A DNA stretch of 64,000 nt from Dongia sedimenti (lineage in GTDB: Bacteria > Pseudomonadota > Alphaproteobacteria > Dongiales > Dongiaceae). Positions 7,938 to 48,956 of the stretch are shown here, piece by piece. Below the pieces are notes generated by a model, which searched no databases, was not told the DNA's origin, and was given only the letters and a program-made list of their open reading frames with translations. Made by a program: the position numbers and the translations under genes. The stretch covers positions 558,001 through 622,000 of the forward strand of contig JAUYVI010000005.1 in assembly GCA_030715195.1 (NCBI GenBank). Direction: 5' to 3'. Position 1 is the first letter of the stretch; each line of letters opens with the position of its first letter.

Positions 7938-9506
7938 ATGTTTTTTACTATTGTTGAGAGTTTCCGGGAGGTACCTGGCGTCGCTCGGAACGCGGCCTTC
8001 CTGGTGACCGATTATTGGGATGACTGGTTTAGCTTCCGCACAATGTTTAGCTTATGGCTGTTTGATGAGGAGGCCGTCCGCCATCAAGTGGGATCAGTAA
8101 AAATTGGCCAGCATGCGCTAGCAGCGTCGGGCCGCCCTGCGCCAGGTGCCGTCTTGCCTCCGGATACTCGGTTCCCCAACCTGGAGCAGACCTTTGACGC
8201 TCTGGATCAACGCTTCTTTTCCCTTGGCCAAGACGAGAATTATTACGAAACGCTCAACGGCCTTTCCGAGGATCTGCGCAATCGCGTTCTAATTGGGCTG
8301 CGAGATTGCGCATTTAATCTTGATATCTTTGAAGCCGAACGCTTGCAGCAAGTCATGCAGACTTCTCTCTTGCGAAGCGTCAGTGAGCAGAGCGTTCGAG
8401 GGCGCCTACATCGCCTGTCTATGGGCGACGCAACACTTACGGAGTTCCAGTTCAGCTATGCGTTTCCCCCGATTGGCGACGGAATCGATCCACCGAGCCT
8501 GCGGTTTGAGGTGACGCCCGAATCACATCCGCCCACTAACGTCCATGTTCTTATCGGTCGGAATGGTGTGGGAAAGACGCGATGCATGCGCGGGATCGCC
8601 GAAGCTCTTCTCGGTCGCGCGCCGGAAGATGGCGAGCCAATCGGAAGAATCATACTCGACCCTAATGCTGGCGCTGAATGGTCATTTGCCGGCCTAGCAA
8701 TGATTTCATTTAGCGCTTTCGACGACTTTGATTTGCGCCCCAAACAGAATGACCGCATCAGATCTCAGCAGGTTGGCCTGGTTGGCTGGGATAAAGACGA
8801 GCAAGGCGTTGAATACGATTTCATGAAGACACCGTCGGATTTGGCCGTCGATTTTCAGCAAAGTTTCAATGCCTGTCGGCAAGGTTTGCGGGCAAAACGT
8901 TGGCGCGCTGCTGTGGAAACGCTGGAGGCAGATGATTTATTTGCAGAGGCTAACGTTACCGCGCTAATGGACATGAACGACGAGCAATGGGGGCCAGCTG
9001 CCATCACTCTCTTCAAAAGGCTTAGCTCAGGACATGCTATTGTCTTATTGACGATGACGCGTCTGGTGGAGGTGGTTGATGAACGTACCCTCGTTCTGCT
9101 CGACGAGCCAGAAGGGCATCTTCATCCTCCACTATTGTCGGCGTTCATTCGTGCACTTTCCGACCTTCTCGTAAAACGAAACGGGGTCGCGATCGTCGCC
9201 ACACACTCTCCGGTCGTTCTCCAAGAAGTGCCAAAGTTATGCGCCTGGAAGTTGCGCCGCGCAAGAGAGGTGGCCGTCGTTGAACGCCCAACAGTAGAAA
9301 CGTTCGGTGAGAACGTAGGTATTCTGACACGCGAAGTCTTTGGCTTCGAAGTGACAAAGTCAGGTTTCCATCGCCTTCTAGATGATGCCGTAAATGTGCG
9401 TCGCTTGAACTTTAATGCGGTGCTTGAACACTTCGACGGAAAGCTTGGCGCGGAAGCCCGCGCCATCGTCCAAGCACTGATCGCTGAACGCGATGCTAGG
9501 CTGTAG
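7938..9506 (+). CDS. SMC/RecF-like AAA ATPase of a probable two-gene defence system
   Basis: A 522-residue protein. Residues 1 to about 195 form an N-terminal region I do not recognise (starts M-F-F-T-I-V-E-S-F-R-E-V-P-G). The ATPase core follows: Walker A G-R-N-G-V-G-K-T at about 207-214, an ABC-like L-S-S-G-H at about 360, Walker B L-V-L-L-D-E-P-E-G-H-L-H-P at about 383-395, and the switch motif V-A-T-H-S-P. This is the architecture of AAA_21/AAA_15-type ATPases partnered with nucleases (Septu PtuA, OLD-like). No Toprim nuclease domain is visible. The HNH gene starts eight bases after the stop. Codon use is AT-richer than the flanks, suggesting acquisition by transfer. Confidence 0.82.
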   Translation: MFFTIVESFREVPGVARNAAFLVTDYWDDWFSFRTMFSLWLFDEEAVRHQVGSVKIGQHALAASGRPAPGAVLPPDTRFPNLEQTFDALDQRFFSLGQDENYYETLNGLSEDLRNRVLIGLRDCAFNLDIFEAERLQQVMQTSLLRSVSEQSVRGRLHRLSMGDATLTEFQFSYAFPPIGDGIDPPSLRFEVTPESHPPTNVHVLIGRNGVGKTRCMRGIAEALLGRAPEDGEPIGRIILDPNAGAEWSFAGLAMISFSAFDDFDLRPKQNDRIRSQQVGLVGWDKDEQGVEYDFMKTPSDLAVDFQQSFNACRQGLRAKRWRAAVETLEADDLFAEANVTALMDMNDEQWGPAAITLFKRLSSGHAIVLLTMTRLVEVVDERTLVLLDEPEGHLHPPLLSAFIRALSDLLVKRNGVAIVATHSPVVLQEVPKLCAWKLRRAREVAVVERPTVETFGENVGILTREVFGFEVTKSGFHRLLDDAVNVRRLNFNAVLEHFDGKLGAEARAIVQALIAERDARL

Positions 9507-9514
9507 GCGGCTGC

Positions 9515-10348
9515 ATGCGACGTTTGAACCGCCCACCGTTTATTGCGCGAGACGCGTTGAATCTTTGCATTGCGAGCATTCAAGATGGAAATCTTGCCGC
9601 TAGATTGGCTCTGACCGCCGACTTAGTTGCGACAGCTGAAGCTGCTTACATTCAACATGGCGATCAGGCAGAACTCTTCCTCATCCCTCAAACTCTCGGT
9701 ATTGGCGGGATCACCGTCGACGAAATGAAGCGGGTCTACAAAGGTACATTCGCTAAGAGCGTTCGAACCCGTAACATCTATGATCAGATCAAGAAGCTGC
9801 CGGAGAACGATATCTGCCCGATGTGTGGGCAACGCACGGTGGGCAGCTTGGATCACTATCTGGCGCAGTCGTTGCACTCCGCGTTAGTCATCGCTCCAAT
9901 CAACCTGGTCCCAGCTTGCAGTGACTGCAATAAGGCCAAGCTGGATGCGCAGCCTGCGACCGCGGAAGAACAAACACTGCATCCCTATTTTGACAACGTG
10001 GACGACGGAACCTGGCTCTACGCCGTCGTTGAGGAAACCAATCCAGCATCCTTGCGCTTCTTTCCGAACCCACCGCCTGATTGGCCGGACGCGAAACGCG
10101 ACAGAGTACTCAATCATTTTCGTAGGTTTGGGTTGGGTGCGCTTTACGCATCGCACTCTGGTGTGGAGCTGACCAACATACAGTATGGGCTAAAACGGAT
10201 CGCCGAACGCGGTAGTGTTGACGACATACGATTGGAGTTGGAGAAGAGAGTGGAGAGCGCTCGGGAGGCGCACGTAAATTCTTGGCAGACAGCTATGTAT
10301 CGTGCCCTGGCTGAGTCTGATTGGTTTTGCGCAGGTGGGTTTAACTAG
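9515..10348 (+). CDS. HNH endonuclease partner (PtuB-like)
   Basis: A 277-residue protein with a zinc-finger-supported HNH nuclease core at about residues 101-140: C-P-M-C-G-Q, then D-H-Y-L-A-Q with the HNH histidine, then N-L-V-P-A-C-S-D-C-N-K-A-K. The N-terminal 95 residues are helical and unassigned, and the C-terminal 130 residues are also unassigned. The arrangement ATPase then HNH, eight bases apart, is that of Septu (PtuAB) and related systems, in which the ATPase licenses DNA or RNA cleavage by the HNH protein. Assignment to Septu itself is uncertain because of the long extra N-terminus of the ATPase. Confidence 0.82.
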   Translation: MRRLNRPPFIARDALNLCIASIQDGNLAARLALTADLVATAEAAYIQHGDQAELFLIPQTLGIGGITVDEMKRVYKGTFAKSVRTRNIYDQIKKLPENDICPMCGQRTVGSLDHYLAQSLHSALVIAPINLVPACSDCNKAKLDAQPATAEEQTLHPYFDNVDDGTWLYAVVEETNPASLRFFPNPPPDWPDAKRDRVLNHFRRFGLGALYASHSGVELTNIQYGLKRIAERGSVDDIRLELEKRVESAREAHVNSWQTAMYRALAESDWFCAGGFN

Positions 10349-11086
10349 CCATCGGCTGGGCCGTCACTGATGCTCGAACGCCTCTTATTCGCCCGTACGG
10401 TTTCGTGGGCTAATCTCCGGAGGCAGTGAGATCCGTTGGTCGCGATGAGGGTAGGGGCGGTTCAATTCTTCTACGCGAAACGAAGTGCCTCTAGCCACAG
10501 GCCGTGGCACGGCAAGGGTGGGTCCCCCATCGTTCGGTGGTTGAGCGAATCGCGCCGATTTGGCCTGGATATTTTCCCTGGCCATGTTGGGTCGAGATCT
10601 TCAACTAGATGAAAGCCGGTGAGTTAGCATTCCGTTTTCAGCTTCGAGCACTGCAAATGCCTTTTTCGCCCGGACGCGGCTGCTATCTCCCCACAGGAAT
10701 TCACAATATTGTTATCTTACAAAGCCTTAGCTGCAACGCAGCTTATGCTGCGGTTATGGGGCAGCTCATAAATCCACTGTGGATTATGAGGATCAGAAAG
10801 TGGCGCGGAACAAAGCGAAAGGCGCGTGACCGCATAAATCCTGCCGCCGTCGCTTGACCGCGGTATGGGAATCGAACATATTGCCGCGGTGAGCCTGTGA
10901 GATACGACCCGGGGTCTTCCGAACCCACGGGTCGCTCCACTCAGGTCTGGTGCAGAGAATGCCCTCGGTCACCAGGTAAGGAAGCTAGGCAGAGAAGGCC
11001 ACAGCATCCCGCTTTCGCCTCGGGAAAGTGGCACGACTTAGCTTTTTTTTCAAGGGGACAAGCCCCTTAGAACAAGGAAGCAGAAC
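10349..11086. other. 738-bp stretch without a supported gene
   Basis: No open frame here is convincing. A minus-strand 66-codon frame (10385-10585) and a plus-strand 82-codon frame (10609-10857) lack ribosome binding sites and recognisable motifs. A short hairpin AAGGGG-ACAAG-CCCCTT at 11053-11069 has its T-run on the 5' side (11042-11050), so it is not a normal terminator. The region may be decayed mobile DNA or hold an unrecognised RNA. Confidence 0.5.
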
Positions 11087-38538: not shown

Positions 38539-39861
38539 TCAGAGGTTGATGCGGAAGTGGGCGCCGCGGTCGCTCGGCACGATGCTGACCTCGCCGCCGT
38601 GGCGCTGGACGATCTGCTTGACCAGGTTGAGCCCGAGGCCGGCGCCGCTGCGCTTCGGCGCCGCGCGGTAGAACGGCTCGAAGACTTCCTCCCTCTGATC
38701 GGCGGGGATGCCCGGCCCCTCGTCACGGACCGCGATGATATTGGGCGGTGACACGATGACCTGGATCGAACCCGCACCGCCGCCGTGCTCGATGGCGTTG
38801 CGCACCAGATTTGCCACGGCGCGCTCGAGTGCACCGGCGTCGCCATGCGCGGGGACGCGATCGCAGTCGGCTGAGAATGAGATCTCGTAGCCCGCGGCGA
38901 TGGCGTTGGGGGCGAGGTCGCCGGCAACCGACTTGCAGATCTGCACCAGGTCGACCTCCTCCATGCGTTGCATGCCGTTGTCCATGCGATGGAGATCGAG
39001 GAGCTGCTCCGCGGTGTTGGCGAGACGCCCGACGTCGTTCAGCAGTTTCTGCTGCTGCCGTCCGTCCGGCATCGCCTCCAGATTGGTCTGCAGGATCGCG
39101 ATCGGGGTGCGCAACTCGTGGGCGGCGTCGGCGAGAAAGCGCCTCTGTTGCGTATAGCCGTGGTCCAGCCGCTCCAGAGCCGCGTTGATGGCGGTGACCA
39201 GAGGCAGCAGCTCCTCCGGGACGTCATCGAGAGGAAGTCGCTGACCGCGCCGGTCGATGTCGATGCTGGCCGCGATGGTGGTGGTCCGGCTCAGGCCCGC
39301 GAGGGCCCGCTTGACCAGGATCGGCACCGCCAGGAAGGCGGCAATCAAAGTGAAGGAGAGGAATGGCAGATAGATGATCTTCATCCGGTCCAGCAGCATC
39401 ACGGCGAAGGATTCCGTCTGCAGGCGGCCGCCGAACATGATCCTGATCTCGCCGACCGGCGAAGTGACCCGCGAGATCATGGAAGTCAGCGGCGAATCGC
39501 CCGTCGCACGGATATCGCTGTCGAGAACGCTGTCGAGCCGGGTTGCGATTGCCTGAAGGTCGCCCGGCACCGTCCCGTAGCGGATCTCGCTTCCGTCCGC
39601 GGCGAGCACGACGAACCAGAGGTCCGGACTCTCCCGCTGGATCCGCGCGAGCTCGGGCGTGGGCGAGATCCGCAGTGCGCCGGTGTCGTCCCGCTCGATC
39701 GACTCCGCAACGAACGGCAGGACGGATTCGTCCACCGAACGGCTGTTGGTGATGATGGTCATCAGATGGAAGAACACGCCCGCGGTGACGGCGATCAGCA
39801 CCAAGGCAAGCACGGCCAGCAGCGGCCAGACGATTCGCCACCGCAGGCTATAGGCCGTCAT
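38539..39861 (-). CDS. Sensor histidine kinase (EnvZ/QseC-type)
   Basis: A 440-residue membrane kinase. Helix 1 (about 10-33), a periplasmic sensor of about 125 residues, helix 2 (about 160-182, F-L-S-F-T-L-I-A-A-F-L-A-V-P), and a HAMP linker lead to the H-box D-A-A-H-E-L-R-T-P with His near 249. The ATP domain follows: N-box N-L-V-R-N-A-I-E-H-G, G1 D-E-G-P-G-I, G2 G-A-G-L-G-L-N. The start overlaps the response regulator stop (ATGA), so the pair is one operon. The signal is unknown; the targets in this block point to envelope or lipid stress. Confidence 0.93.
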   Translation of the reverse strand: MTAYSLRWRIVWPLLAVLALVLIAVTAGVFFHLMTIITNSRSVDESVLPFVAESIERDDTGALRISPTPELARIQRESPDLWFVVLAADGSEIRYGTVPGDLQAIATRLDSVLDSDIRATGDSPLTSMISRVTSPVGEIRIMFGGRLQTESFAVMLLDRMKIIYLPFLSFTLIAAFLAVPILVKRALAGLSRTTTIAASIDIDRRGQRLPLDDVPEELLPLVTAINAALERLDHGYTQQRRFLADAAHELRTPIAILQTNLEAMPDGRQQQKLLNDVGRLANTAEQLLDLHRMDNGMQRMEEVDLVQICKSVAGDLAPNAIAAGYEISFSADCDRVPAHGDAGALERAVANLVRNAIEHGGGAGSIQVIVSPPNIIAVRDEGPGIPADQREEVFEPFYRAAPKRSGAGLGLNLVKQIVQRHGGEVSIVPSDRGAHFRINL

Positions 39862-40532
39862 TCGGCCGCCTTCAGCAGATAACCGATGCCCCGGATCGTA
39901 TGGATCGCGACGCCGGCGTCGAGCTCAGCCAGCTTCTTGCGAAGGCGCGATACATGCGAGTCCAATGCGTTCGACTGGATCTCGGCGTCGAAGTTGTAGA
40001 CGGCGTTGGCGAGCGCCTCGCGGGTTACTGTCCGGCCGATCCGCTTCATCAAGGCGGCCAGAACCAGGAGCTCGCGCCGCGGCAGGATCACCGGCTTGCC
40101 GTCGAGCGACGGTTCCATGTGCGAGACTTCGAATGACAAACGCCCGGCGGTGATGACGTCCGGCGAGAGCAGCGGCTGCCGACGGAGTACCGCCCGAAGC
40201 CGCGCGATCAACTCCTCGACGACGAAGGGCTTGCCCATGTAGTCGTCGGCGCCGAGGTCGAGTCCACGGATGCGGCCCTCATGATCGTTGTGGGCCGTGA
40301 GCACGATGATCGGGGTGTCGATGTCCGCGGCGCGGATCTCGGGAATGAGCCGGAGGCCTTCGCCGTCGGGCATCTGCCGGTCGAGGAGAATCGCATCGTA
40401 GGCATGAAGGCGCACCGCCTCGCGCGCATCCCCCACCGAGCTCACGTGGTCGATAACGATATTGTGTTTGGATAACGCGGCGCCGAGTGCGCCTGCCATG
40501 TCCAGCTCGTCCTCTACCAAAAGAATCCGCAT
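39858..40532 (-). CDS. OmpR/PhoB-family response regulator
   Basis: A 224-residue regulator. The receiver has the acidic pair E8-D9, phospho-acceptor D51 in I-L-L-D-R-Q-M-P, T in V-L-T-A-H, and K in G-K-P-F. The C-terminal winged helix (about 125-222) ends I-R-G-I-G-Y-L-L. ATG 40532 gives the M-R-I-L-L-V-E-D-E start. OmpR-type winged helices bind as dimers to direct repeats with about 11-bp period. Exactly such repeats lie upstream of this gene and of two nearby genes, so it is the likely regulator of those promoters and of itself. Confidence 0.93.
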   Translation of the reverse strand: MRILLVEDELDMAGALGAALSKHNIVIDHVSSVGDAREAVRLHAYDAILLDRQMPDGEGLRLIPEIRAADIDTPIIVLTAHNDHEGRIRGLDLGADDYMGKPFVVEELIARLRAVLRRQPLLSPDVITAGRLSFEVSHMEPSLDGKPVILPRRELLVLAALMKRIGRTVTREALANAVYNFDAEIQSNALDSHVSRLRKKLAELDAGVAIHTIRGIGYLLKAAE

Positions 40533-40577
40533 ACACAATCCTCTGCCGCATTCGGGACAGGGTTATTGGTCCCGAGC

Positions 40578-40638
40578 ATTGCGGCAACATTGCGCGAATA
40601 GTCAGGGATGCCCGGTCGGCACGCAATGTGGAAGCAAT
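40578..40638. promoter_or_regulatory. Paired facing tandem-repeat operator, copy A
   Basis: Box A1 on the plus strand reads ATTGCG-GCAAC-ATTGCG (40578-40594, 11-bp period). Box A2 on the minus strand reads ATTGCT-TCCAC-ATTGCG (40638-40622, 11-bp period). The boxes start 44 bp apart. They lie in the divergent spacer between the response regulator (start 40532) and the ELM1 gene (start 40669). The design fits an OmpR-family dimer on each box; two more copies occur at 41992 and 42987. Confidence 0.75.
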
Positions 40639-40668
40639 GCGCGCTCGAAAGATTGTCCGTCAGGCGAG

Positions 40669-41964
40669 ATGCGTTCGCCCTTCGTGCAATGGTTAATGGA
40701 GCTCCCGCCCGTGCTCAATCACTCGGACCTCATGCGTCCCCCGACCGGAAGCCCGCCCGCGGCGGATGATTCCGAGACAGATCTCATCCTGCAGGACCTT
40801 CGACATGCGCCGAGCCTGGCGGCGTGCGTCGGCTGGTCACCCCCGGAGATCTGGGTCGTGCTGACGCATGCGAGCGGGGACAACGACCAATGCTTGGCAC
40901 TGGCGGAAGCTCTCTGCCTGCCCTTCCGCTGCATCCACCTCAACTGGCCGGCATGCAGTCGGGAGGTGGATCGGGCGCGGCTCATGGCGCTGCTGCGGGA
41001 AGACCTGCCGGGCCGGATGTGGCGCGCGGCAAACAGCCTTCATGCGCCGTGGCCGCGCCTGATCATCTGCTGCGGCCGCCGTGCCGGCGGTCTTGCCTTC
41101 TGGATCAAGCGCCAGTCAGGCGGCCGCGCGAAGGTCGTCACCATCGGTCGCGCGCACCGGTCGCTGGCGGACTACGACCTGGTCGTTGCACCGCCGCAGT
41201 ACATGTTGCCGGAGCGCGCCAACGTCATTCACCTGCCGATTCTCATGGGGCGGCCGCGAACCGAGATCCGGGCCGAGCCGATCCTGGCGTCCAAGCCTTG
41301 GTTCACGCTTCTGCTCGGCGGCCGCGTCAAGCAGTTCGTCACGAGCGAAGCGGCGCTCAGGCAGGCGGCGCTGCGCGCGGCGCTGGCCGCCGAACGGACC
41401 GGCGGCTCGGTCATCGTCTCGGCGTCCCGCCGGACGCCGCCTTGGCTGCTGGCCGCCGCGGAGGGCGAGCTGACGGCCCCCATGGTGTACCGCTGGACCG
41501 GCCCGGGCGCCGAGAATCCTTACGCGACATTGCTGCAGCAATCCACGGCCGTCTTCGTCACCGGGGACAGTCCGTCGATGATCTGGGACGCATGCCGTGC
41601 GGGTGCGCCGACCTATCTCATCGAGCTGCCGGACCGCAGGGACATTCGACGGCTCTGGCGCCGCGGCCTCTACGACCTTATCCGCAATATGGCGCGGTTG
41701 CTGCGGGAGGCCGGGTTGCAGGGCGCGGCCCGCTCGGTGGATCGCGCGCAGGACTGGCTGCATGCGAGCCGCATTCTTCGCTATCCGCGGGACCTTCGCC
41801 GATTTCACGCCAAGGTGTATGAGATGGGCCTGGCCCGGCCCGCCGCCGATTTCGATCCGGCGGCGATCCCCGCGCGGCGCGATGTGGACGCGCTGCCCGA
41901 TGCTTCAGCCATTCGCGCCGTGCTCGAGAGATGCCTGGCATGGCTGAGTCCGCACAAACCGTGA
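40669..41964 (+). CDS. ELM1/GtrOC1 family (DUF1022) protein
   Basis: A 431-residue protein of the mitochondrial-fission ELM1 family, glycosyltransferase-like GT-B fold proteins found in plants and alphaproteobacteria. Typical segments are I-W-V-V-L-T-H-A-S-G-D-N-D-Q-C, L-I-I-C-C-G-R-R-A-G, P-W-F-T-L-L-L-G-G-R and F-V-T-G-D-S-P-S-M-I-W-D-A-C. No membrane helix or signal is seen. ATG 40669 has AGGCGAG upstream; ATG 40696 is possible. It is divergent from the two-component operon. Role unknown; an envelope-glycan modification function is an inference. Confidence 0.82.
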   Translation: MRSPFVQWLMELPPVLNHSDLMRPPTGSPPAADDSETDLILQDLRHAPSLAACVGWSPPEIWVVLTHASGDNDQCLALAEALCLPFRCIHLNWPACSREVDRARLMALLREDLPGRMWRAANSLHAPWPRLIICCGRRAGGLAFWIKRQSGGRAKVVTIGRAHRSLADYDLVVAPPQYMLPERANVIHLPILMGRPRTEIRAEPILASKPWFTLLLGGRVKQFVTSEAALRQAALRAALAAERTGGSVIVSASRRTPPWLLAAAEGELTAPMVYRWTGPGAENPYATLLQQSTAVFVTGDSPSMIWDACRAGAPTYLIELPDRRDIRRLWRRGLYDLIRNMARLLREAGLQGAARSVDRAQDWLHASRILRYPRDLRRFHAKVYEMGLARPAADFDPAAIPARRDVDALPDASAIRAVLERCLAWLSPHKP

Positions 41965-41991
41965 GCGCGGCAGCGCCGATCCAAGCCCGGC

Positions 41992-42052
41992 ATTGCGCCA
42001 GGGTTGCGCAAATTTTCTCCGTGCGCGCAGCGATCCGTAATGCAGCGGCAAT
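41992..42052. promoter_or_regulatory. Paired facing tandem-repeat operator, copy B
   Basis: Box B1 (plus) ATTGCG-CCAGG-GTTGCG at 41992-42008; box B2 (minus) ATTGCC-GCTGC-ATTACG at 42052-42036. Both have an 11-bp period and their starts are 44 bp apart, the same geometry as copy A. It begins 28 bp after the ELM1 stop and ends 64 bp before the MlaA start at 42117. Confidence 0.72.
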
Positions 42053-42116
42053 CCGGCGAAGCGATACTTCATCGTGCGACGAAGATCCCTGCGAACCGAA
42101 CGCGAGCGGAGTTGAA

Positions 42117-42896
42117 ATGCGCCATCCACGCCATCTAAAGCATCGATCGACGCTTGCGTTCGGTCTCCTCGCCATGGCGACCCTCGGGGCCTGCGCCGAA
42201 GTGCCGACCGATCCGGTCGCGCGCTCGGCCTATGACGAGGCGAACGATCCGGCCGAGCCGACGAACCGCGTCATCTTCGACGGCAATCAATGGGTCGACC
42301 GCAATGCCCTGCAACCTGTGGCGCGCGCCTATCAGGACAATCTGCCGGATGGCGTCCGCGACAGTGTTCACAACTTCGGCCAGAACCTGGGAGCGCCCCT
42401 CGTGCTGGTGAACGATGTGCTCCAGGGAAACCTGGACCGGGCCTGGACCACGACGCAAAGGCTCGCCGTCAACACCACGGTCGGCGTTGCCGGACTGTTC
42501 GATGTTGCGAGCGATTGGGACCTGCCGGCGCATAAGGCCGATTTCGGACAGACCATGGGTGTTTGGGGTGTGGAGTCCGGGCCGAGCGTGCAGCTTCCGC
42601 TGCTCGGGCCGTCGAATCTGCGCGACGCCGCCGGCACGGCCTTCGGACTCTTCGGCGATCCCGTCGGCTATGTTCCCGGGATGCAGGTCGTGCAGACGGC
42701 CGGCGCGGTGGGCGGCGCCATCGATGGACGCGCCCGGATGCTGCCCTTGACCGACGATCTGGAGAAGAACTCCGTCGATTACTATTCCGCGGTCCGCAGC
42801 CTCTATGCGCAGCACCGCGCGGCCTTCGTCGCGGAAGGCAAGGCCGGCGGCGACCCGGCGGACGCCGATGGAACGGTGATGCCCTCGGAACCCTGA
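42117..42896 (+). CDS. mlaA: MlaA/VacJ family outer-membrane lipoprotein
   Basis: A 259-residue lipoprotein. The signal ends in the lipobox L-G-A-C (Cys 26). The MlaA core is clear: D-P-A-E-P-T-N-R-V-I-F-D-G-N, N-F-G-Q-N-L-G-A-P-L-V-L-V-N-D-V-L-Q-G, N-T-T-V-G-V-A-G-L-F-D-V-A and L-P-L-L-G-P-S-N-L-R-D. MlaA removes phospholipids from the outer leaflet of the outer membrane. No mlaBCDEF genes are adjacent, so it is a solitary copy. GCGGAG precedes ATG 42117. Operator copy B lies upstream, suggesting induction by the local two-component system. Confidence 0.92.
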   Translation: MRHPRHLKHRSTLAFGLLAMATLGACAEVPTDPVARSAYDEANDPAEPTNRVIFDGNQWVDRNALQPVARAYQDNLPDGVRDSVHNFGQNLGAPLVLVNDVLQGNLDRAWTTTQRLAVNTTVGVAGLFDVASDWDLPAHKADFGQTMGVWGVESGPSVQLPLLGPSNLRDAAGTAFGLFGDPVGYVPGMQVVQTAGAVGGAIDGRARMLPLTDDLEKNSVDYYSAVRSLYAQHRAAFVAEGKAGGDPADADGTVMPSEP

Positions 42897-42986
42897 CCGT
42901 CCGGGAGCGGCTCGCCGAATCCCAGCCTGTTGCGCGGGCGCGGCTTATCATGCCGCGCCCATCGTCCGTTCCGCGCCTTATCCAAT

Positions 42987-43048
42987 ATTGCCACAGCATT
43001 GCGGGAAAAAAATCCGACTGTCGCGTCGACGCGCAATGTTCGGGCAAC
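42987..43048. promoter_or_regulatory. Paired facing tandem-repeat operator, copy C
   Basis: Box C1 (plus) ATTGCC-ACAGC-ATTGCG at 42987-43003; box C2 (minus) GTTGCC-CGAAC-ATTGCG at 43048-43032. Both have an 11-bp period and starts 45 bp apart. It ends 68 bp before the mipA start at 43117 and so would control mipA and the RND genes behind it. Confidence 0.75.
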
Positions 43049-43116
43049 GCCGCCGGGCGATATCCCTTGCGGCGGCGACGTTGATCGCCGCGATTTCATC
43101 GCAAAGGGACTGAAGA

Positions 43117-43941
43117 ATGCCCCATTCGTTTCGTCGAAAGCGTGGCCTGATGTTCGCACTCGGTCTCCTCTGCGCCGCCGCGCCACTGCGCGCGGCCCAC
43201 ACGGACGAGCCTCAGCCGGGTGCTTCCGAACCGTCGTGGCTCGACGGCGCCGCGGCGCAGGCGCACGAATGGAACATGATCGTCGGCGGCGGTTTCCGCG
43301 TGGAGCCCAAGTTCGAGGGCGCCGACGATGTCAAGATCATGCCCGTACCGATGATCATGGCGGATTTCGGCCCCTATATCAGCGTCGACGTCCGCGGCTT
43401 GACCGTCAACGCGTTCGACTATGAGGGCCTGAGCGTCAAGGGTCGCGTCGGCTACGACCTCGGCCGCGATTCCGACGACGACAAGCATCTCCACGGCCTC
43501 GGCGACATCGGTTCCGGCGCCGTGCTGGGCCTCGACCTCGCCTACGATTGGGAACCGGTGCAGTTCACGGTCGCGCTGGACAAGACCATCGGCGGCGGCG
43601 ACGGCTTCACCGCCAAGTTCGGGGCCGCCTATTCGGTCGGGTTCGACCAGTTCCAGTTCTCCATCGGCCCGTCTTTCACCTGGGCGGACGGCAACGCCAT
43701 GGAGTCCTACTTCGGGGTGAGCGACCGGCAATCGCGGAAATCCGGTCTCTCGCGCTTCGACGCGGATGCCGGCATCAAGCGGGTCGATCTCGAACTCTCC
43801 GGCCTCTATATGCTCGACGAGCATTGGGTGGTTCGCGGCGAGGTGACGTTCGGCTATCTGACCGGCGACGCGGCGGACAGCCCGGTCTCGCAGCGGAATT
43901 TCCAGCCGTCCACCATGTTCCTGGTGGGATACAAGTTTTGA
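43117..43941 (+). CDS. mipA: MipA/OmpV family outer-membrane protein
   Basis: A 274-residue protein with a signal peptide (M-F-A-L-G-L-L-C-A-A-A-P-L-R-A, cleavage near residue 27) and an alternating beta-strand pattern ending in the outer-membrane C-terminal aromatic F-L-V-G-Y-K-F. The MipA/OmpV start of the mature domain is W-N-M-I-V-G-G-G-F-R-V-E-P-K-F-E-G-A-D. These barrels scaffold murein enzymes or carry drug-resistance phenotypes. It is first in a unit with the RND genes (19-bp gap to the adaptor), and AAAGGGA precedes the start. Confidence 0.9.
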   Translation: MPHSFRRKRGLMFALGLLCAAAPLRAAHTDEPQPGASEPSWLDGAAAQAHEWNMIVGGGFRVEPKFEGADDVKIMPVPMIMADFGPYISVDVRGLTVNAFDYEGLSVKGRVGYDLGRDSDDDKHLHGLGDIGSGAVLGLDLAYDWEPVQFTVALDKTIGGGDGFTAKFGAAYSVGFDQFQFSIGPSFTWADGNAMESYFGVSDRQSRKSGLSRFDADAGIKRVDLELSGLYMLDEHWVVRGEVTFGYLTGDAADSPVSQRNFQPSTMFLVGYKF

Positions 43942-43960: not shown

Positions 43961-45055
43961 ATGATCCGCTTCCGACCGGCGCCGTGGATCATCGGCCTCG
44001 TGCTGGTCGCCGTGGCCGGCGGCATCGCGGTCAATGCGGCACCGCGGATGAAGCGGCTCGAACCGTCGGCGGCGGAGCCGAGCATCGCCCCGGTGACGAA
44101 CGCGATGGCGGTCGTCACCGTGCATCCCATCTTCACCGAGTGGCAGGACACGATCGAAGCCTCCGGCGTGATCGCGGCCTGGCAGGAGGCCAGCATTAAC
44201 GCGCAGATCGGCGGCTACCAGATCGTCGAGTTGCGCGTTGATGTCGGTGACGTGGTGCGGGAAGGGCAGGTGCTCGCCGTCCTCAATCCGGCGATGCTGG
44301 AGGCGCAGCGCGCCGAGTTGCAGGCTCGACTGGACCAGGCGGTCGCCGACCGCAAGCGGGCCGCGGCCCTGAGCGCCAAAGGGAACACGAGCGCGAAGAG
44401 CCTGCTCGAGGCGGAAACGGAGGAAAAGACCGCGCGGGCGCTGCTCGCGCAGAAGGGGCTCGAGATCAAATACGCGACGGTGGTGGCGCCGGATTCCGGG
44501 ATCGTCGTCTCGCGCTCCGCCATGCTCGGCCAGATCAGCCAGCTCGGCACCGAACTGTTCCGCGTCATCCGCCAGGGTCGTCTCGAATGGCGTGCCGAGA
44601 TCGCGGCATCGGAGCTCGCCAAGGTGGCGCCGGGGCAGGCGGCGCAAGTCGATCTTCCGGACGGCGCGGTAGTGGCCGGCATGGTTCGGACACTGTCGCC
44701 GGTGCTGGACGAAACGACGCGGCGCGGCTTGGTCTACGTCGACCTCGCGGCGGACGGCACGGCGCGCGCCGGGACGTACGGCAAGGGCCGGATCCTGCTG
44801 GGTACCCGCCAGGCGCTGGTCGTCCCGGCTGCGACCTTGCTGATCAAGGACGGCCGGCATTACGTCGCCAGGATTGCCGGATCCGGGGATGGCACGACGG
44901 TGGCGCTGGTTCCGGTCGAGGTCGGATTCTATGCCGGGGACCGGGCCGAGATCACGGGAGGCCTCTCGCCAGTCGACACGATCGTGCGCGAAGGCGCCGG
45001 GCTGCTCGACGAGGGGGATCGGGTGCGCGTGGTGCCCGCCGTCTCCGCTGAGTGA
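43961..45055 (+). CDS. RND efflux periplasmic adaptor (membrane fusion protein)
   Basis: A 364-residue adaptor with an N-terminal membrane anchor (I-I-G-L-V-L-V-A-V-A-G-G-I-A). The biotinyl-lipoyl-like half motifs are V-V-R-E-G-Q-V-L-A-V-L-N and V-V-A-P-D-S-G-I-V-V-S-R-S, flanking a short hairpin (L-Q-A-R-L-D-Q-A-V-A-D-R-K-R-A-A-A-L). It connects the RND pump to an outer-membrane channel; none is encoded here. It is 10 bp upstream of the permease gene. Confidence 0.92.
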   Translation: MIRFRPAPWIIGLVLVAVAGGIAVNAAPRMKRLEPSAAEPSIAPVTNAMAVVTVHPIFTEWQDTIEASGVIAAWQEASINAQIGGYQIVELRVDVGDVVREGQVLAVLNPAMLEAQRAELQARLDQAVADRKRAAALSAKGNTSAKSLLEAETEEKTARALLAQKGLEIKYATVVAPDSGIVVSRSAMLGQISQLGTELFRVIRQGRLEWRAEIAASELAKVAPGQAAQVDLPDGAVVAGMVRTLSPVLDETTRRGLVYVDLAADGTARAGTYGKGRILLGTRQALVVPAATLLIKDGRHYVARIAGSGDGTTVALVPVEVGFYAGDRAEITGGLSPVDTIVREGAGLLDEGDRVRVVPAVSAE

Positions 45056-45065
45056 GGGCGGCACG

Positions 45066-48000
45066 ATGAATTTCGCAACCTGGTCCATCCGGAATCCGAT
45101 TCCTGTCGTCGTCCTGTTCGCCCTGCTGACAATCGCCGGCGTCTGGAGCTTTGTCCGGCTGCCGATCCAGGACATGCCGGACATTGAGAATCCCGCGGTG
45201 AAGGTTGTGCTGTCCCAGCCCGGCGCGACGCCCGGCCAGCTCGAGGTCGAGGTGGCGCGTCCGGTGGAGAACGCAATCGCGCCGCTCGACCGCCTGGCGC
45301 ATATGCAGACGACGATCACCGAGGGCCAGGTGACGATCGAGGCCGAGTTCGAACTGAGCAAGTCGCTCTCCGACGCGCTCTCGGAAGTGAAGGAGGCAGT
45401 GGACGGTGTTCGCTCGACGCTGCCGGACGATCTCGAGGAGCCGTCCGTCACCGAGGTCAACGTACTCGAAGATCCACTCCAGGTTTATGCCGTCAAGTCG
45501 TCCGAGATGGACGATGAAGCCTTGTCCTGGTTCCTCGACGACGTCGTGGCGCGCCGGATCACGAAACTCGCCGGGGTCGGCCGCTTCGAGCGCATCGGCG
45601 GCGTCAATCGGGAGATCACCGTCGAGGTCGATCCCGAATCCGCAACGGCGATCGGTGTCACGCCCATGATCGTCTCCCGCGCCCTGGAGTCGATGCAGCA
45701 GCAGCTTTCCGGGGGCCGCGGCACGCTCGGCGAATCAGACCAGTCGGTGCGGGTCTCGGCGCTGGTGCCGGACGCGCGGTCCCTGGAGCATCTCGCCATT
45801 TCGCTGCCGGGTGGCGGCTATGCCGCGCTCGGCGAGATCGCCAGGGTGCGGGACGGCGCCCGCGACCGCACCCAGATCGCACTTCTAGACGGCCGGGTCG
45901 CCGTCGGATTCAGGATATTCTCCGCCAAGGGCGCGGACGTGACGCAAATGGCGCACCGGGTCGATGCCGAGCTGGGTGACCTGGTCGCGACGACGCGGGG
46001 TCTCCAGATCGTGCGTCTCTCCAACACGGTCGACCAGACGCTGGAGCAGTATGACGGCTCGATGGACATGCTCTATGAGGGCGGCGCGCTGGCGATGCTG
46101 GTCGTGTGGCTGTTCCTGCGCGACTGGCGGGCGACCGTGGTCGCGGCGGTCGCCTTGCCGCTCTCGATCCTACCGGCCTTCGCCGGAATGGAAGCACTGG
46201 GCTTCTCGCTCAACACCCTGACGCTGCTCGCCCTCGCGGTCACCATCGGGATCCTGGTTGACGACGTCATTGTCGAGGTCGAGAACATCAAGCGGCACGC
46301 GATTGCCGGCAAGCCGATCAAGCAGGCGACCGCGGATGCCGTGGTCGAGATTGCCATCGTCGTCCTTGCGACCACGCTCTGCCTGGTCTGCGCCTTTCTT
46401 CCGACCACCATCATGCCCGGCGTGCCCGGAATGCTGTTCAAGCAGTTCGGCTGGACCGCGATCGTCGCGGTGCTGTGCTCCCTGCTGGTGGCGCGGCTGC
46501 TGACGCCGATGATGGCAGCCTGGTTGCTGAAGCCGGACACGAAAGGAGAGCGCGCTGACGGCTGGCTGATGCGGATCTACCTGGCCACGGCCGACTGGTG
46601 CCTGGCCCATCGGCTGGTGACCGTGGCGGCGGCGGCCCTTTTCCTGACGGGTTCCGTTCTGCTGGTGCCGTTGATTCCGACCGGGCTCATTCCGGCAGAC
46701 GACGTCGGCAACACGACCATCGACGTCGAGATGGCGCCGGGCACCGCCCTGGAAGCCACGACGGGCAAGACGGAGGAGATCCGCAGGGCTCTGGCCGCAG
46801 TGAGCGGCGTCGAGCACGTCCTCGCCATCGTCGGGAGCGGCCAGGAGCCGGGAAGCGGCGGCAACACGGCGGAACTGTTGGTAACCCTGGCCGCCAAGGA
46901 ATACCGCCCCCGACTGGCCGTGGTCGAAGATCAAATCCGCGACGCTCTGGCGAATGTTCCCGGCGCGCGGTTCTCGGTCGGATCTGGCGGCCTCGGGCAG
47001 AGCGCCGAGCTGATGCTGGCCAGCGCCGATGCCAATGCCCTGCGCGTCTCCGTGCGGGCGATCGAGCGCGAGATGCGCGGGCTCGCCGCGCTGTCGAACA
47101 TCCGGTCCAGCGCCAGCCTGGAGCGCGGCGAGATCGTCATCCGGCCGGATACTCTCCGCACCGCAGAGCGTGGGATCGCGACCGAGATGATCGGCGATTC
47201 CGTGCGCGTCGCAACCGGCGGCGACTTCGACCACGAGGTCGGGCGGCTGAACTTTGAGAATCGACAGGTCTTCTTGCGCGTGCGCCTCGCCGATCCCGTC
47301 CGGGGGGACCCGCGGGCCCTCGCAGACCTGCGCATACCCGGAGCCAAGGGGCTGGTGCCGCTCACCAGCATTGCCGCGATCTCGGTCGAGAGCGGACCGA
47401 CGCAGATCGACCGGTTCGACCGCGAGCGCACCATCACGATCAGCGCCGATCTCGGAAGCGCATCCTATGGGGCGACAATGGCCGAGGTGATGGCGCTGCC
47501 GTCGGTCAAAGCACTACCGTCGAGCGTTTCCTTCATCGAAGCGGGCGACAGTGAGATCGCCGGCGATCTGCAGAGAGGCTTCATCACGGCGATCGCGGCC
47601 GGCATCGTTTGCGTCTATGCCGTGCTGGTGGTCCTGTTCAAGGATTTCTTCCAGCCGGTCACCATTCTCTCGGCGATTCCGTTCTCGCTGGGCGGCGCAC
47701 TCGCCTTGCTGCTCATCTCCGGCAGCGAGCTCGACGTGCCGTCCCTGATCGGCATGGTGACGCTGATCGGCGTCGTGACCAAGAACTCCATCCTGCTGGT
47801 GGAATACGCCATCATGGGAATCCAGGACGGGGGCCTCTCGGTGCGCGACGCCCTGATCGATGCCTGCCACAAGCGGGCGCGGCCGATCGTCATGACGACG
47901 GTCGCGATGATCGCCGGGATGGCGCCGATCGCCGCGGGGCTCGGTTCCGACGCTTCGTTCCGACAGCCGATGGCACTGGCCGTGATCGGCGGCCTCATCA

Positions 48001-48092
48001 CCTCGACGGCCCTGAGCCTGCTCATCGTGCCGGTCGTCTTCAGCTGCGTCCTTTCCGCCAAAACGCGCGTGGCGGCGCGCATCTTGCCTTGA
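45066..48092 (+). CDS. RND efflux transporter permease (HAE1-type)
   Basis: A 1008-residue inner-membrane proton-driven pump. It starts M-N-F-A-T-W-S-I-R-N-P-I-P-V-V-V-L-F. Twelve membrane helices flank two large periplasmic loops. The proton relay is I-L-V-D-D-V-I-V-E-V-E-N-I in helix 4 (Asp pair near 399), and the second half has G-V-V-T-K-N-S-I-L-L-V-E-Y. GAGGG precedes ATG 45066. The substrate cannot be read from sequence; divergence from AcrB suggests lipid, solvent or another amphiphile. It is the last gene of the mipA unit. Confidence 0.94.
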   Translation: MNFATWSIRNPIPVVVLFALLTIAGVWSFVRLPIQDMPDIENPAVKVVLSQPGATPGQLEVEVARPVENAIAPLDRLAHMQTTITEGQVTIEAEFELSKSLSDALSEVKEAVDGVRSTLPDDLEEPSVTEVNVLEDPLQVYAVKSSEMDDEALSWFLDDVVARRITKLAGVGRFERIGGVNREITVEVDPESATAIGVTPMIVSRALESMQQQLSGGRGTLGESDQSVRVSALVPDARSLEHLAISLPGGGYAALGEIARVRDGARDRTQIALLDGRVAVGFRIFSAKGADVTQMAHRVDAELGDLVATTRGLQIVRLSNTVDQTLEQYDGSMDMLYEGGALAMLVVWLFLRDWRATVVAAVALPLSILPAFAGMEALGFSLNTLTLLALAVTIGILVDDVIVEVENIKRHAIAGKPIKQATADAVVEIAIVVLATTLCLVCAFLPTTIMPGVPGMLFKQFGWTAIVAVLCSLLVARLLTPMMAAWLLKPDTKGERADGWLMRIYLATADWCLAHRLVTVAAAALFLTGSVLLVPLIPTGLIPADDVGNTTIDVEMAPGTALEATTGKTEEIRRALAAVSGVEHVLAIVGSGQEPGSGGNTAELLVTLAAKEYRPRLAVVEDQIRDALANVPGARFSVGSGGLGQSAELMLASADANALRVSVRAIEREMRGLAALSNIRSSASLERGEIVIRPDTLRTAERGIATEMIGDSVRVATGGDFDHEVGRLNFENRQVFLRVRLADPVRGDPRALADLRIPGAKGLVPLTSIAAISVESGPTQIDRFDRERTITISADLGSASYGATMAEVMALPSVKALPSSVSFIEAGDSEIAGDLQRGFITAIAAGIVCVYAVLVVLFKDFFQPVTILSAIPFSLGGALALLLISGSELDVPSLIGMVTLIGVVTKNSILLVEYAIMGIQDGGLSVRDALIDACHKRARPIVMTTVAMIAGMAPIAAGLGSDASFRQPMALAVIGGLITSTALSLLIVPVVFSCVLSAKTRVAARILP

Positions 48093-48157: not shown

Positions 48158-48418
48158 TCATTCAGGAGAGGCGCTGGCTTTCAAACGCACGCCGCGTCCA
48201 CGTCCGATGCTCTGGGAGTTCTCGCCGATGAGTTCGATTCCGGCCTGTTCCATCGCGGCCACGAGCTTCATCAGCGAGTCGACATTTCCGCGCACGACAC
48301 CATCGCTGGCTTCCATGCGTTGCACGGTTGGCAGAGAAAGACCCGATAGTTCGGCCATGTGCCGTTGATCAATTCCCAGGAGCGCTCGCGCGGCTTTCAT
48401 CTGCGCTCCAGTTATCAT
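48158..48418 (-). CDS. Small XRE-type HTH regulator, paralogue 1
   Basis: An 86-residue protein that is a single Cro/CI helix-turn-helix: M-K-A-A-R-A-L-L-G-I-D-Q-R-H-M-A-E-L-S-G-L-S, then T-V-Q-R-M-E-A-S, then D-S-L-M-K-L-V-A-A-M-E-Q-A-G-I-E-L-I, ending G-R-G-V-R-L-K. It is closely similar to the gene at 48672, which is divergent from it across a 253-bp AT-rich spacer. The two look like duplicates. It converges with the RND permease gene. Confidence 0.88.
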   Translation of the reverse strand: MITGAQMKAARALLGIDQRHMAELSGLSLPTVQRMEASDGVVRGNVDSLMKLVAAMEQAGIELIGENSQSIGRGRGVRLKASASPE

Positions 48419-48671: not shown

Positions 48672-48956
48672 GTGATAACCGCCGCTCAGCTCAGAGCCGC
48701 TCGGGCGCTTCTCGGCATGGATCAGCGCAAGCTGGCGGAGCTGTCGGGGCTGTCGGTCCCGACCATTCAGCGCATGGAAGCCAGCGAGGCGACCATTCGC
48801 GGCAATGTGGATTCGCTCATGAAGTTGATCGCGGCCCTCGACGTCGCCGGCATCGAATTGATCGCGGAAGGCGCCATCAGCCAACCCGGTGGGCGTGGTG
48901 TGCGTCTGAGGTGTGCGCCGAATTCCGATGTCGCAACGACGGCGGGCGAAGTGTGA
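48672..48956 (+). CDS. Small XRE-type HTH regulator, paralogue 2, leading the hyf-like operon
   Basis: A 94-residue protein: A-R-A-L-L-G-M-D-Q-R-K-L-A-E-L-S-G-L-S, T-I-Q-R-M-E-A-S, N-V-D-S-L-M-K-L-I-A-A-L-D-V-A-G-I-E-L-I, G-R-G-V-R-L-R. It starts at GTG 48672 (M-I-T-A-A-Q), the same start context as its paralogue. Its stop overlaps the hyfB GTG start (GTGA), so regulator and membrane complex are translationally coupled; it is probably an autoregulator of the operon. Confidence 0.88.
   Translation: MITAAQLRAARALLGMDQRKLAELSGLSVPTIQRMEASEATIRGNVDSLMKLIAALDVAGIELIAEGAISQPGGRGVRLRCAPNSDVATTAGEV

Follow-up and report, generated by a model that had tools for sequence, protein, structure and literature searches.

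Introduction

Which protein binds the paired boxes that recur between the genes of one bacterial locus, and how do two boxes, set face to face at a nearly constant distance, serve the promoters beside them? This question is raised by a stretch of 64,000 nucleotides (64 kb) from Dongia sedimenti (contig JAUYVI010000005.1 of assembly GCA_030715195.1, positions 558,001 to 622,000; here 'the window', whose own numbering is used throughout). Three of its spacers lie beside the genes of an OmpR/PhoB-type response regulator and its sensor histidine kinase, of an ELM1-family protein, of the lipoprotein MlaA, and of a MipA/OmpV family protein followed by an RND pump. We propose that the three spacers are probably operators of the adjacent regulator, in each of which a proximal box would take the class II position and a distal box would act as an auxiliary site.

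Three paired operators in the window

The window was scanned on both strands for the pattern RTTGC-N6-RTTRCG, i.e. for boxes of two AACATTGCG half-sites at an 11-bp period. Six exact boxes were found, compared to a mean of 0.28 expected (0 of 100 shuffles reached six), and all of them belong to three spacers, termed operators A, B and C. In the case of operator A, box 1 (40578..40594, plus strand, ATTGCGGCAACATTGCG) is nearer the regulator gene, which reads leftwards, and box 2 (40622..40638, minus strand, ATTGCTTCCACATTGCG) is nearer the ELM1-family gene. In operator B, box 1 (41992..42008, plus strand, ATTGCGCCAGGGTTGCG) is distal and has no gene-facing -10 element, and box 2 (42036..42052, minus strand, ATTGCCGCTGCATTACG) is nearer mlaA. 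Operator C is built alike, with a distal box 1 again without a gene-facing -10 element (42987..43003, plus strand, ATTGCCACAGCATTGCG) and a box 2 nearer the mipA-RND genes (43032..43048, minus strand, GTTGCCCGAACATTGCG). The positions and strands of the six boxes, as well as the three facing pairs with start offsets of 44, 44 and 45 bp, are those given by the original prediction; the gap between the facing boxes is 27 nt in A and B and 28 nt in C. Just past the ELM1 gene, box B1 is overlapped by an inverted repeat (41993-42011) that resembles a terminator and has a T-rich tail; two terminator-like matches were found in the region, compared to 1.4 in shuffles.

The rest of the own genome (G000, 6,131,315 bases, 6.13 Mb) was then covered. 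It holds 23 single exact boxes, six of them in the window, against 7 for the backwards control. A pair scan had been suggested by the original prediction, and with gaps of 15-45 nt it returned no exact facing pair outside operators A, B and C. When the 61-bp pair pattern with a gap of 27 was allowed up to three mismatches, A and B matched at 0 and one other site at 3; operator C, with its gap of 28, cannot match this pattern. Three of the 17 single boxes outside the window were viewed (L011, L014, L021), and all overlap reading frames. A tighter box, ATTGC-N3-AACATTRCG, with at most one mismatch, has a single further match in the own genome, which falls within a reading frame, so that a larger genome-wide regulon was set aside. 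Besides one tight-box match in G302 (contig C23), nine extra ones in relatives were viewed: four lie inside long reading frames (L142, L147, L151, L157), two are intergenic or in a doubtful frame (L148, L152), and three are orthologous (L143-L145; one mismatch, position 1501), upstream of one membrane-protease-like gene. The start of its product presumably is that of an RseP-type membrane protease (HEYGH motif), and this gene is possibly a further target.

Facing boxes form an inverted repeat, and together with the terminator-like match over box B1 this could be taken as the mark of an RNA hairpin, a terminator or a mobile palindromic repeat. We regard this as highly improbable. The five bases between the half-sites agree no better within pairs (2.83 of 5) than across pairs (2.93), the box cores are conserved and the spacer far less so, and no further copy of the exact pair is present in the own genome. 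The comparison of the bases between half-sites and the confinement of the pair to the locus led us to disfavour all three of these structures.

Conservation of the operators and of the regulator

A scan of genome contigs was carried out, from which 80 loci were kept. Four of these encode regulators 83% identical to that of the window. They belong to a Dongia metagenome-assembled genome (MAG; G007, loci L024 and L125), in whose genus the window genome is placed, to Taklimakanibacter lacteus (G302, L025 and L123), to Rhizobiales bacterium Y(2018) (G303, L026 and L122) and to Aestuariivirga sp. YIM B02566 (G304, L027 and L124). Facing pairs occur in five of five genomes, that is, the window genome and these four, and in all four relatives (L024-L027) the regulator gene is preceded by an equally placed box. 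The Dongia MAG has three pairs, before regulator/ELM1, MlaA and MipA, matching the window. T. lacteus has two, at the regulator/radical-SAM-like gene and at MipA. Bacterium Y(2018) has three, one on the regulator side (34 bp), one on the MipA side (44 bp) and a further one (44 bp) downstream of the RND gene. In the case of Aestuariivirga, one complete pair stands before a gene for a flavin adenine dinucleotide (FAD)-dependent oxidoreductase, and a single box before the regulator. The pair is present before orthologous promoters in related genomes, where the original prediction had advised to look for it. The five genomes have 12 pairs in all, with an offset of 44 bp in nine, 45 in two and 34 in one; this exception is 10 bp under 44, i.e. 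about one helical turn away from the others.

Two of these pairs are worth describing on their own. In Aestuariivirga (L124:9746-11192), a MipA-type paired operator stands before the oxidoreductase gene, which looks like the capture of a promoter by a different gene, and no mipA or RND genes were found in the 19 kb of this locus. In bacterium Y(2018), the extra facing pair (L122:15369-15429, 44 bp) is found some 0.85 kb ahead of a further response regulator gene (28% identity).

Dongia belongs to the Rhodospirillales, and Taklimakanibacter and Aestuariivirga to the Hyphomicrobiales. Because the regulator is about 83% identical both to that of the Dongia MAG and to those of the Hyphomicrobiales loci, the comparison suggests its spread by horizontal transfer.

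At the level of single positions, 25 boxes share the conserved core RTTGC-NNN-RACATTRCG. Conservation was counted in 13 comparisons of orthologous operators, some of which pair fairly close relatives; 10 of 13 operators entered (all but L122-A, L122-D and L124-A), and the pairing of L122 with L124 was omitted. Core identity was 166/182 (91%) for box 1 and 163/182 (90%) for box 2, and the free bases within the boxes were identical at 19/39 and 17/39 positions, respectively. The spacer, read over its first 27 bases even where it has 28, gave 170/351 (48%), the 20 nt outside box 1 gave 101/260 (39%) and the 12 nt past the -10 region 55/156 (35%). On the 3' side of box 2, the first 12 nt were identical at 109/156 positions and the next 6 nt at 47/78.

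The spacer figure includes an A/T-rich tract beside box 1 in most operators, with A at position 20 in 12 of 12 and T at position 21 in 10 of 12. In the window, this tract forms the inner flank of box A1 (40595..40603), B1 (42009..42017) and C1 (43004..43012), each on the plus strand. It is in register with a weak third half-site at +22 (mean z = 5.1 over the operator set, with a positive score in 3 of 12 operators). Box 2 has no such tract, and the operator element is polar for this reason. Copying of operators is suggested by L122-D, whose box 2 has a flank like that in operator A.

The occurrence of pair and regulator was also compared in larger samples. In the own family (17 genomes), the regulator (E <= 1e-60) was found in two genomes and the exact pair in the same two. 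In a class sample of 289 genomes, with at most 10 regulator candidates scored per genome, the regulator was found in the own genome only; the exact pair was found there and, as a single match whose gap is 13 nt longer, in G243. The exact pattern used in these two samples recovers only two of the five genomes known to have pairs and would miss G302-G304; pairs with one mismatch are the sole kind in three of the five. In the family of G302 (69 genomes), four genomes have the regulator, three at 83% (G302, G303, G304) and G359 at 56%, and G304 has a second copy at 55%. Pairs with a gap of 27 and at most one mismatch were seen only in G302, G303 and G304. Two mismatches allowed a second pair in G303 and single pairs in G309, G352 and G359, and in these pairs one or both boxes lack the RACATT core. 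Altogether, the pair tracks the 83% regulator, matches in the sampled genomes that lack it are rare and poorer, and the cores are conserved, so that sequence comparison supports the first prediction of a local regulon under the neighbouring OmpR/PhoB-type regulator, with its listed target genes and its fixed spacing.

The regulator gene (39858..40532, minus strand) encodes a receiver (PF00072, 89.4 bits) and a C-terminal winged helix (PF00486, 78.4 bits), both above cut-off. Together with the adjoining kinase gene this identifies an OmpR/PhoB-type regulator by Pfam. The kinase (38539..39861, minus strand; HisKA 40.1 bits, HATPase_c 84.7 bits) is encoded directly downstream, and the two genes overlap by a few bases; a two-component system is thus present as originally described, and the word 'orphan' then given to it is a loose one. 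Within the regulator, the segment SNALDSHVSRLRKKL is taken, after PhoB, as the putative recognition helix. All 12 homologues of at least 54% identity have the segment SN(A/S)LD(A/S)H(V/I)SRLR in common, and in the 33 rows below 46% among the 45 listed it differs.

Boxes were searched before the homologues in 63 of the 80 loci, within 200 bp and, for six loci of 54-61% identity, additionally within 700 bp. In these six (L028-L032 and L057, from Rhizobium, Labrys and Mesorhizobium) the regulator operon is preceded by a box in the same orientation, which has no mismatch in four loci and one in two; in L028-L031 it lies about 465 bp upstream, before a small gene. L030 has like-oriented boxes about 1 kb apart, and additional single boxes occur in the Labrys loci; in three cases (L029, L030, L031) GCGATAGGG follows the box at the same distance. 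No facing pair was found in the six loci. Because these homologues have single boxes and no facing pair, the pair seems to be a later elaboration of a single-box autoregulated system. In Mesorhizobium helmanticense (L032:7074), a second single box with one mismatch lies just past the kinase gene, possibly driving the next gene.

Could a different transcription factor, and not the neighbouring response regulator, bind the boxes? The genome has other regulators, and two homologues of 55-56% identity (L129, L130) keep the helix segment and lack a clear box: none within one mismatch was found in 450 bp of L129, and only a doubtful one in L130. Against this, 10 of the 12 homologues of at least 54% have a box before the regulator operon and the 53 less related loci have none within one mismatch in 200 bp. 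The pair follows the 83% regulator across genome samples, and 11-bp direct repeats suit this kind of DNA-binding domain. Binding by another factor is therefore scarcely probable in our view.

A possible role for the distal box

Putative -10 elements were placed by position and recurrence. That of the regulator/kinase promoter would lie at 40560..40567 (minus strand), 10-12 nt from box A1. On the plus strand, the one facing the ELM1 gene would lie at 40649..40656 (AAGATTGT; similar in L122, L123 and L125), that of mlaA at 42063..42070 (GATACTTC) and that of mipA at 43059..43066 (GATATCCC). For 17 gene-facing boxes, mean matches to TATAAT were 3.0 of 6 at a gap of 10 and 2.41 at a gap of 12, and 0 of 2000 shuffles reached the maximum, a count that overstates significance because the flanks include near copies related by descent. 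For eight distal boxes facing no gene, the maximum was 2.12, which 199 of 2000 shuffles reached. An A at the second -10 position was found in 15 of 16 gene-facing boxes, compared to 2 of 8 (Fisher p = 0.0013; a post hoc comparison with the register set by eye and L124-A excluded as a near copy). A sigma-70 consensus scan of 40400-43200 found no promoter, with 0.3 expected by chance; this would fit activator-dependent promoters and says little. With this geometry, we infer that the proximal box covers the -35 region, the class II position. The reversed distal box lies 56-57 nt from the -10 element at a gap of 12 (46 in L122-A), and 2 nt less at a gap of 10.

In the mechanism that we favour, each box, with its tandem half-sites, would be bound by a head-to-tail regulator dimer. 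The proximal box, 10-12 nt upstream of a -10-like hexamer, would act as a class II activator site, and the reverse distal box, 44-45 bp further upstream, would be an auxiliary activating site in fixed helical phase. This distal box may act by contact with the alpha subunit of RNA polymerase or by cooperation with the proximal dimer. The two boxes of operator A face two divergent promoters, so that one operator would serve both autoregulation of the regulator/kinase genes and control of the ELM1 gene. A connection with the outer membrane is indicated by mlaA, mipA and the RND genes; the output would be a coordinated expression of outer-membrane genes (mlaA, mipA-RND, ELM1), and the signal probably comes from the envelope.

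Cooperation between two dimers is possible, and a class II box with an independent auxiliary box would explain the layout as well as the two dimers interacting on one face of the DNA that the original prediction suggested. A bolder form of cooperation, which we hold to be conceivable and rather doubtful, treats the facing pair as a rigid unit. The dimers would sit about four helical turns apart (three in one variant), touch across the 27-bp spacer and form, with the third half-site of box 1, an obligate four-site complex that fires promoters on either side. One standard cassette, in place of varied boxes, would then wire a whole envelope regulon and move between orders together with its regulator.

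Operators B and C do not lie between divergent gene pairs and their distal boxes have no outward -10 element; with the flank of L122-D box 2 hinting at copying, these boxes might be functionless leftovers of the two-promoter design of operator A. However, the distal cores are conserved like the proximal ones (91% and 90%), compared to 39% just outside box 1, and the offset of 44 or 45 bp is kept in 11 of 12 pairs, the exception differing by those 10 bp. This explanation thus appears unlikely to us.

A role of the distal box in repression or in a backward transcript, instead of activation, was considered as well. Some Salmonella PhoP boxes are thought to be repressive, lying over the -10 element or past the start site (PMC3335776), and box 1 has its own A/T-rich flank. 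The distal boxes here are found upstream of the promoter, unlike those presumed repression boxes, and no outward -10-like element stands out beside them in the shuffles given above. We judge a repressive or antisense role improbable.

Several observations weigh against class II activation with an auxiliary distal box as the function of the three operators. The scan puts the best -10 gap at 10, whereas it is 12 in PhoP and on inspection by eye. At 54-57 nt from the -10 element, the distal box only approximates the reverse positions of PhoP. Operator A is not uniform: Aestuariivirga has lost its box 2, and in bacterium Y(2018) box 2 stands at 34 bp. A radical-SAM-like gene (Pfam Radical_SAM and B12-binding, both under cut-off) is part of the cluster in L122, L123 and L125 (in L125 at 9088-10716), and its relative in the own genome (71%), which lies on another contig (G000:C12:525006-526508), has no box within one mismatch in its 4.5-kb locus; a wholly fixed regulon is disfavoured for this reason. 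The absence of the exact pattern from the family and class samples is weaker evidence than that from the 69-genome sample, and the missing boxes of L129 and L130 belong here too. The paired form is known from five genomes only, in which operators are orthologous or copied, so that counts and shuffles overstate independence.

Relation to characterised regulators

The closest likeness is found in a study of Salmonella PhoP (PMC3335776). In its architecture I, one direct box stands 12 nt (11 in yrbL) before the -10 element, an arrangement predicted to be class II and shown to be so for mgtA. In architecture II, such a direct box, about 12 nt from the -10 element, is joined by a second one, usually upstream. 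In ybjX this second box has the reverse orientation and stands 30 nt farther upstream than the first; when it is mutated, expression falls more than 8-fold. In the ssrB promoter the second box lies downstream. A single reversed box suffices for activation when placed 27, 37 or 48 nt from the -10 element, spacings of half-integral turns, and natural reversed boxes are found at 30-58 nt (PMC3335776).

Like architecture II, the operators described here would combine a 17-nt direct box of two half-sites, set 10-12 nt before a -10-like hexamer, with a second box (PMC3335776), and the layout with the second box upstream is found in the 12 pairs of the five genomes. The distal distances may be read as near the 58 and 47-49 positions of PhoP, within the uncertainty of the box register. 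It had been stated that no description of this arrangement was known; architecture II, with ybjX, is a tested precedent in that source (PMC3335776), and the statement does not hold. There are differences too. The place of the second PhoP box varies among promoters and 17 of the 23 analysed promoters have other architectures (PMC3335776), whereas a single arrangement, a facing pair at 44-45 bp, is common to the three local operators, and operator A lies between divergent promoters. The half-site is AACATTGCG here and (T/G)GTTTA in PhoP.

Other systems share single traits. E. coli ArcA binds direct-repeat elements 11 bp apart, centre to centre, with extra elements mostly at 11 or 22 bp; in the portion of that report available, these extra elements are direct repeats (PMC3798270), whereas here the second box is inverted and a weak direct third element is found at +22 of box 1. 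The PHO boxes of Streptomyces PhoP are likewise sites of 11-nt direct repeat units, and a facing pair is not described in the available part of the source (PMC7866108). BesRS of Burkholderia thailandensis, also a two-component system, responds to envelope disturbance and controls a MipA/OmpV gene as part of its regulon; its cis element, two inverted-repeat pairs and one direct repeat in 22 bp, differs from the operators here (PMC9426598).

No paper on the present two-component system was found in searches of an open-access library. What is new is a uniform facing pair, apparently rigid, at local targets, kept in two orders and with a natural version 10 bp shorter. An uncharacterised alphaproteobacterial two-component system thereby gains a defined candidate site and a small list of outer-membrane and efflux targets. 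Moreover, the natural series of offsets (44, 45 and 34 bp), with one box lost and with single-box homologues, bears on what an upstream box in reverse orientation contributes to class II activation; tests of this were found in the literature only for Salmonella PhoP (PMC3335776).

Gene content of the locus

The regulator carries no named NCBIfam family because all of its listed scores are well under the curated cut-offs. Among the matches listed, it is far under the cut-offs of all 25 NCBIfam models; the best is PmrA (NF007928, 174.2 bits for a cut-off of 330), and QseB (NF007663) gave 143.7 bits for a cut-off of 345. PmrA, RppA, TctD, QseB and the heavy-metal response regulators, which are among the best matches, have the same domain layout, but by these scores the regulator belongs to none of them.

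The candidate target genes other than the regulator/kinase pair all lie on the plus strand. The ELM1-family protein (PF06258) is encoded at 40669..41964, with an uncertain start codon, and the MlaA lipoprotein (PF04333) at 42117..42896, with a start codon picked within a longer open reading frame. These are followed by the MipA/OmpV family protein (PF06629) at 43117..43941, the RND periplasmic adaptor (TIGR01730, 156.8 bits for a cut-off of 94.9) at 43961..45055 and the RND permease (PF00873) at 45066..48092. Downstream of the permease gene, in opposite orientation, lie two small helix-turn-helix-like genes (48158-48418 and 48672-48956) that look alike by eye, and only the gene at 48672-48956 passes a Pfam cut-off (HTH_3).

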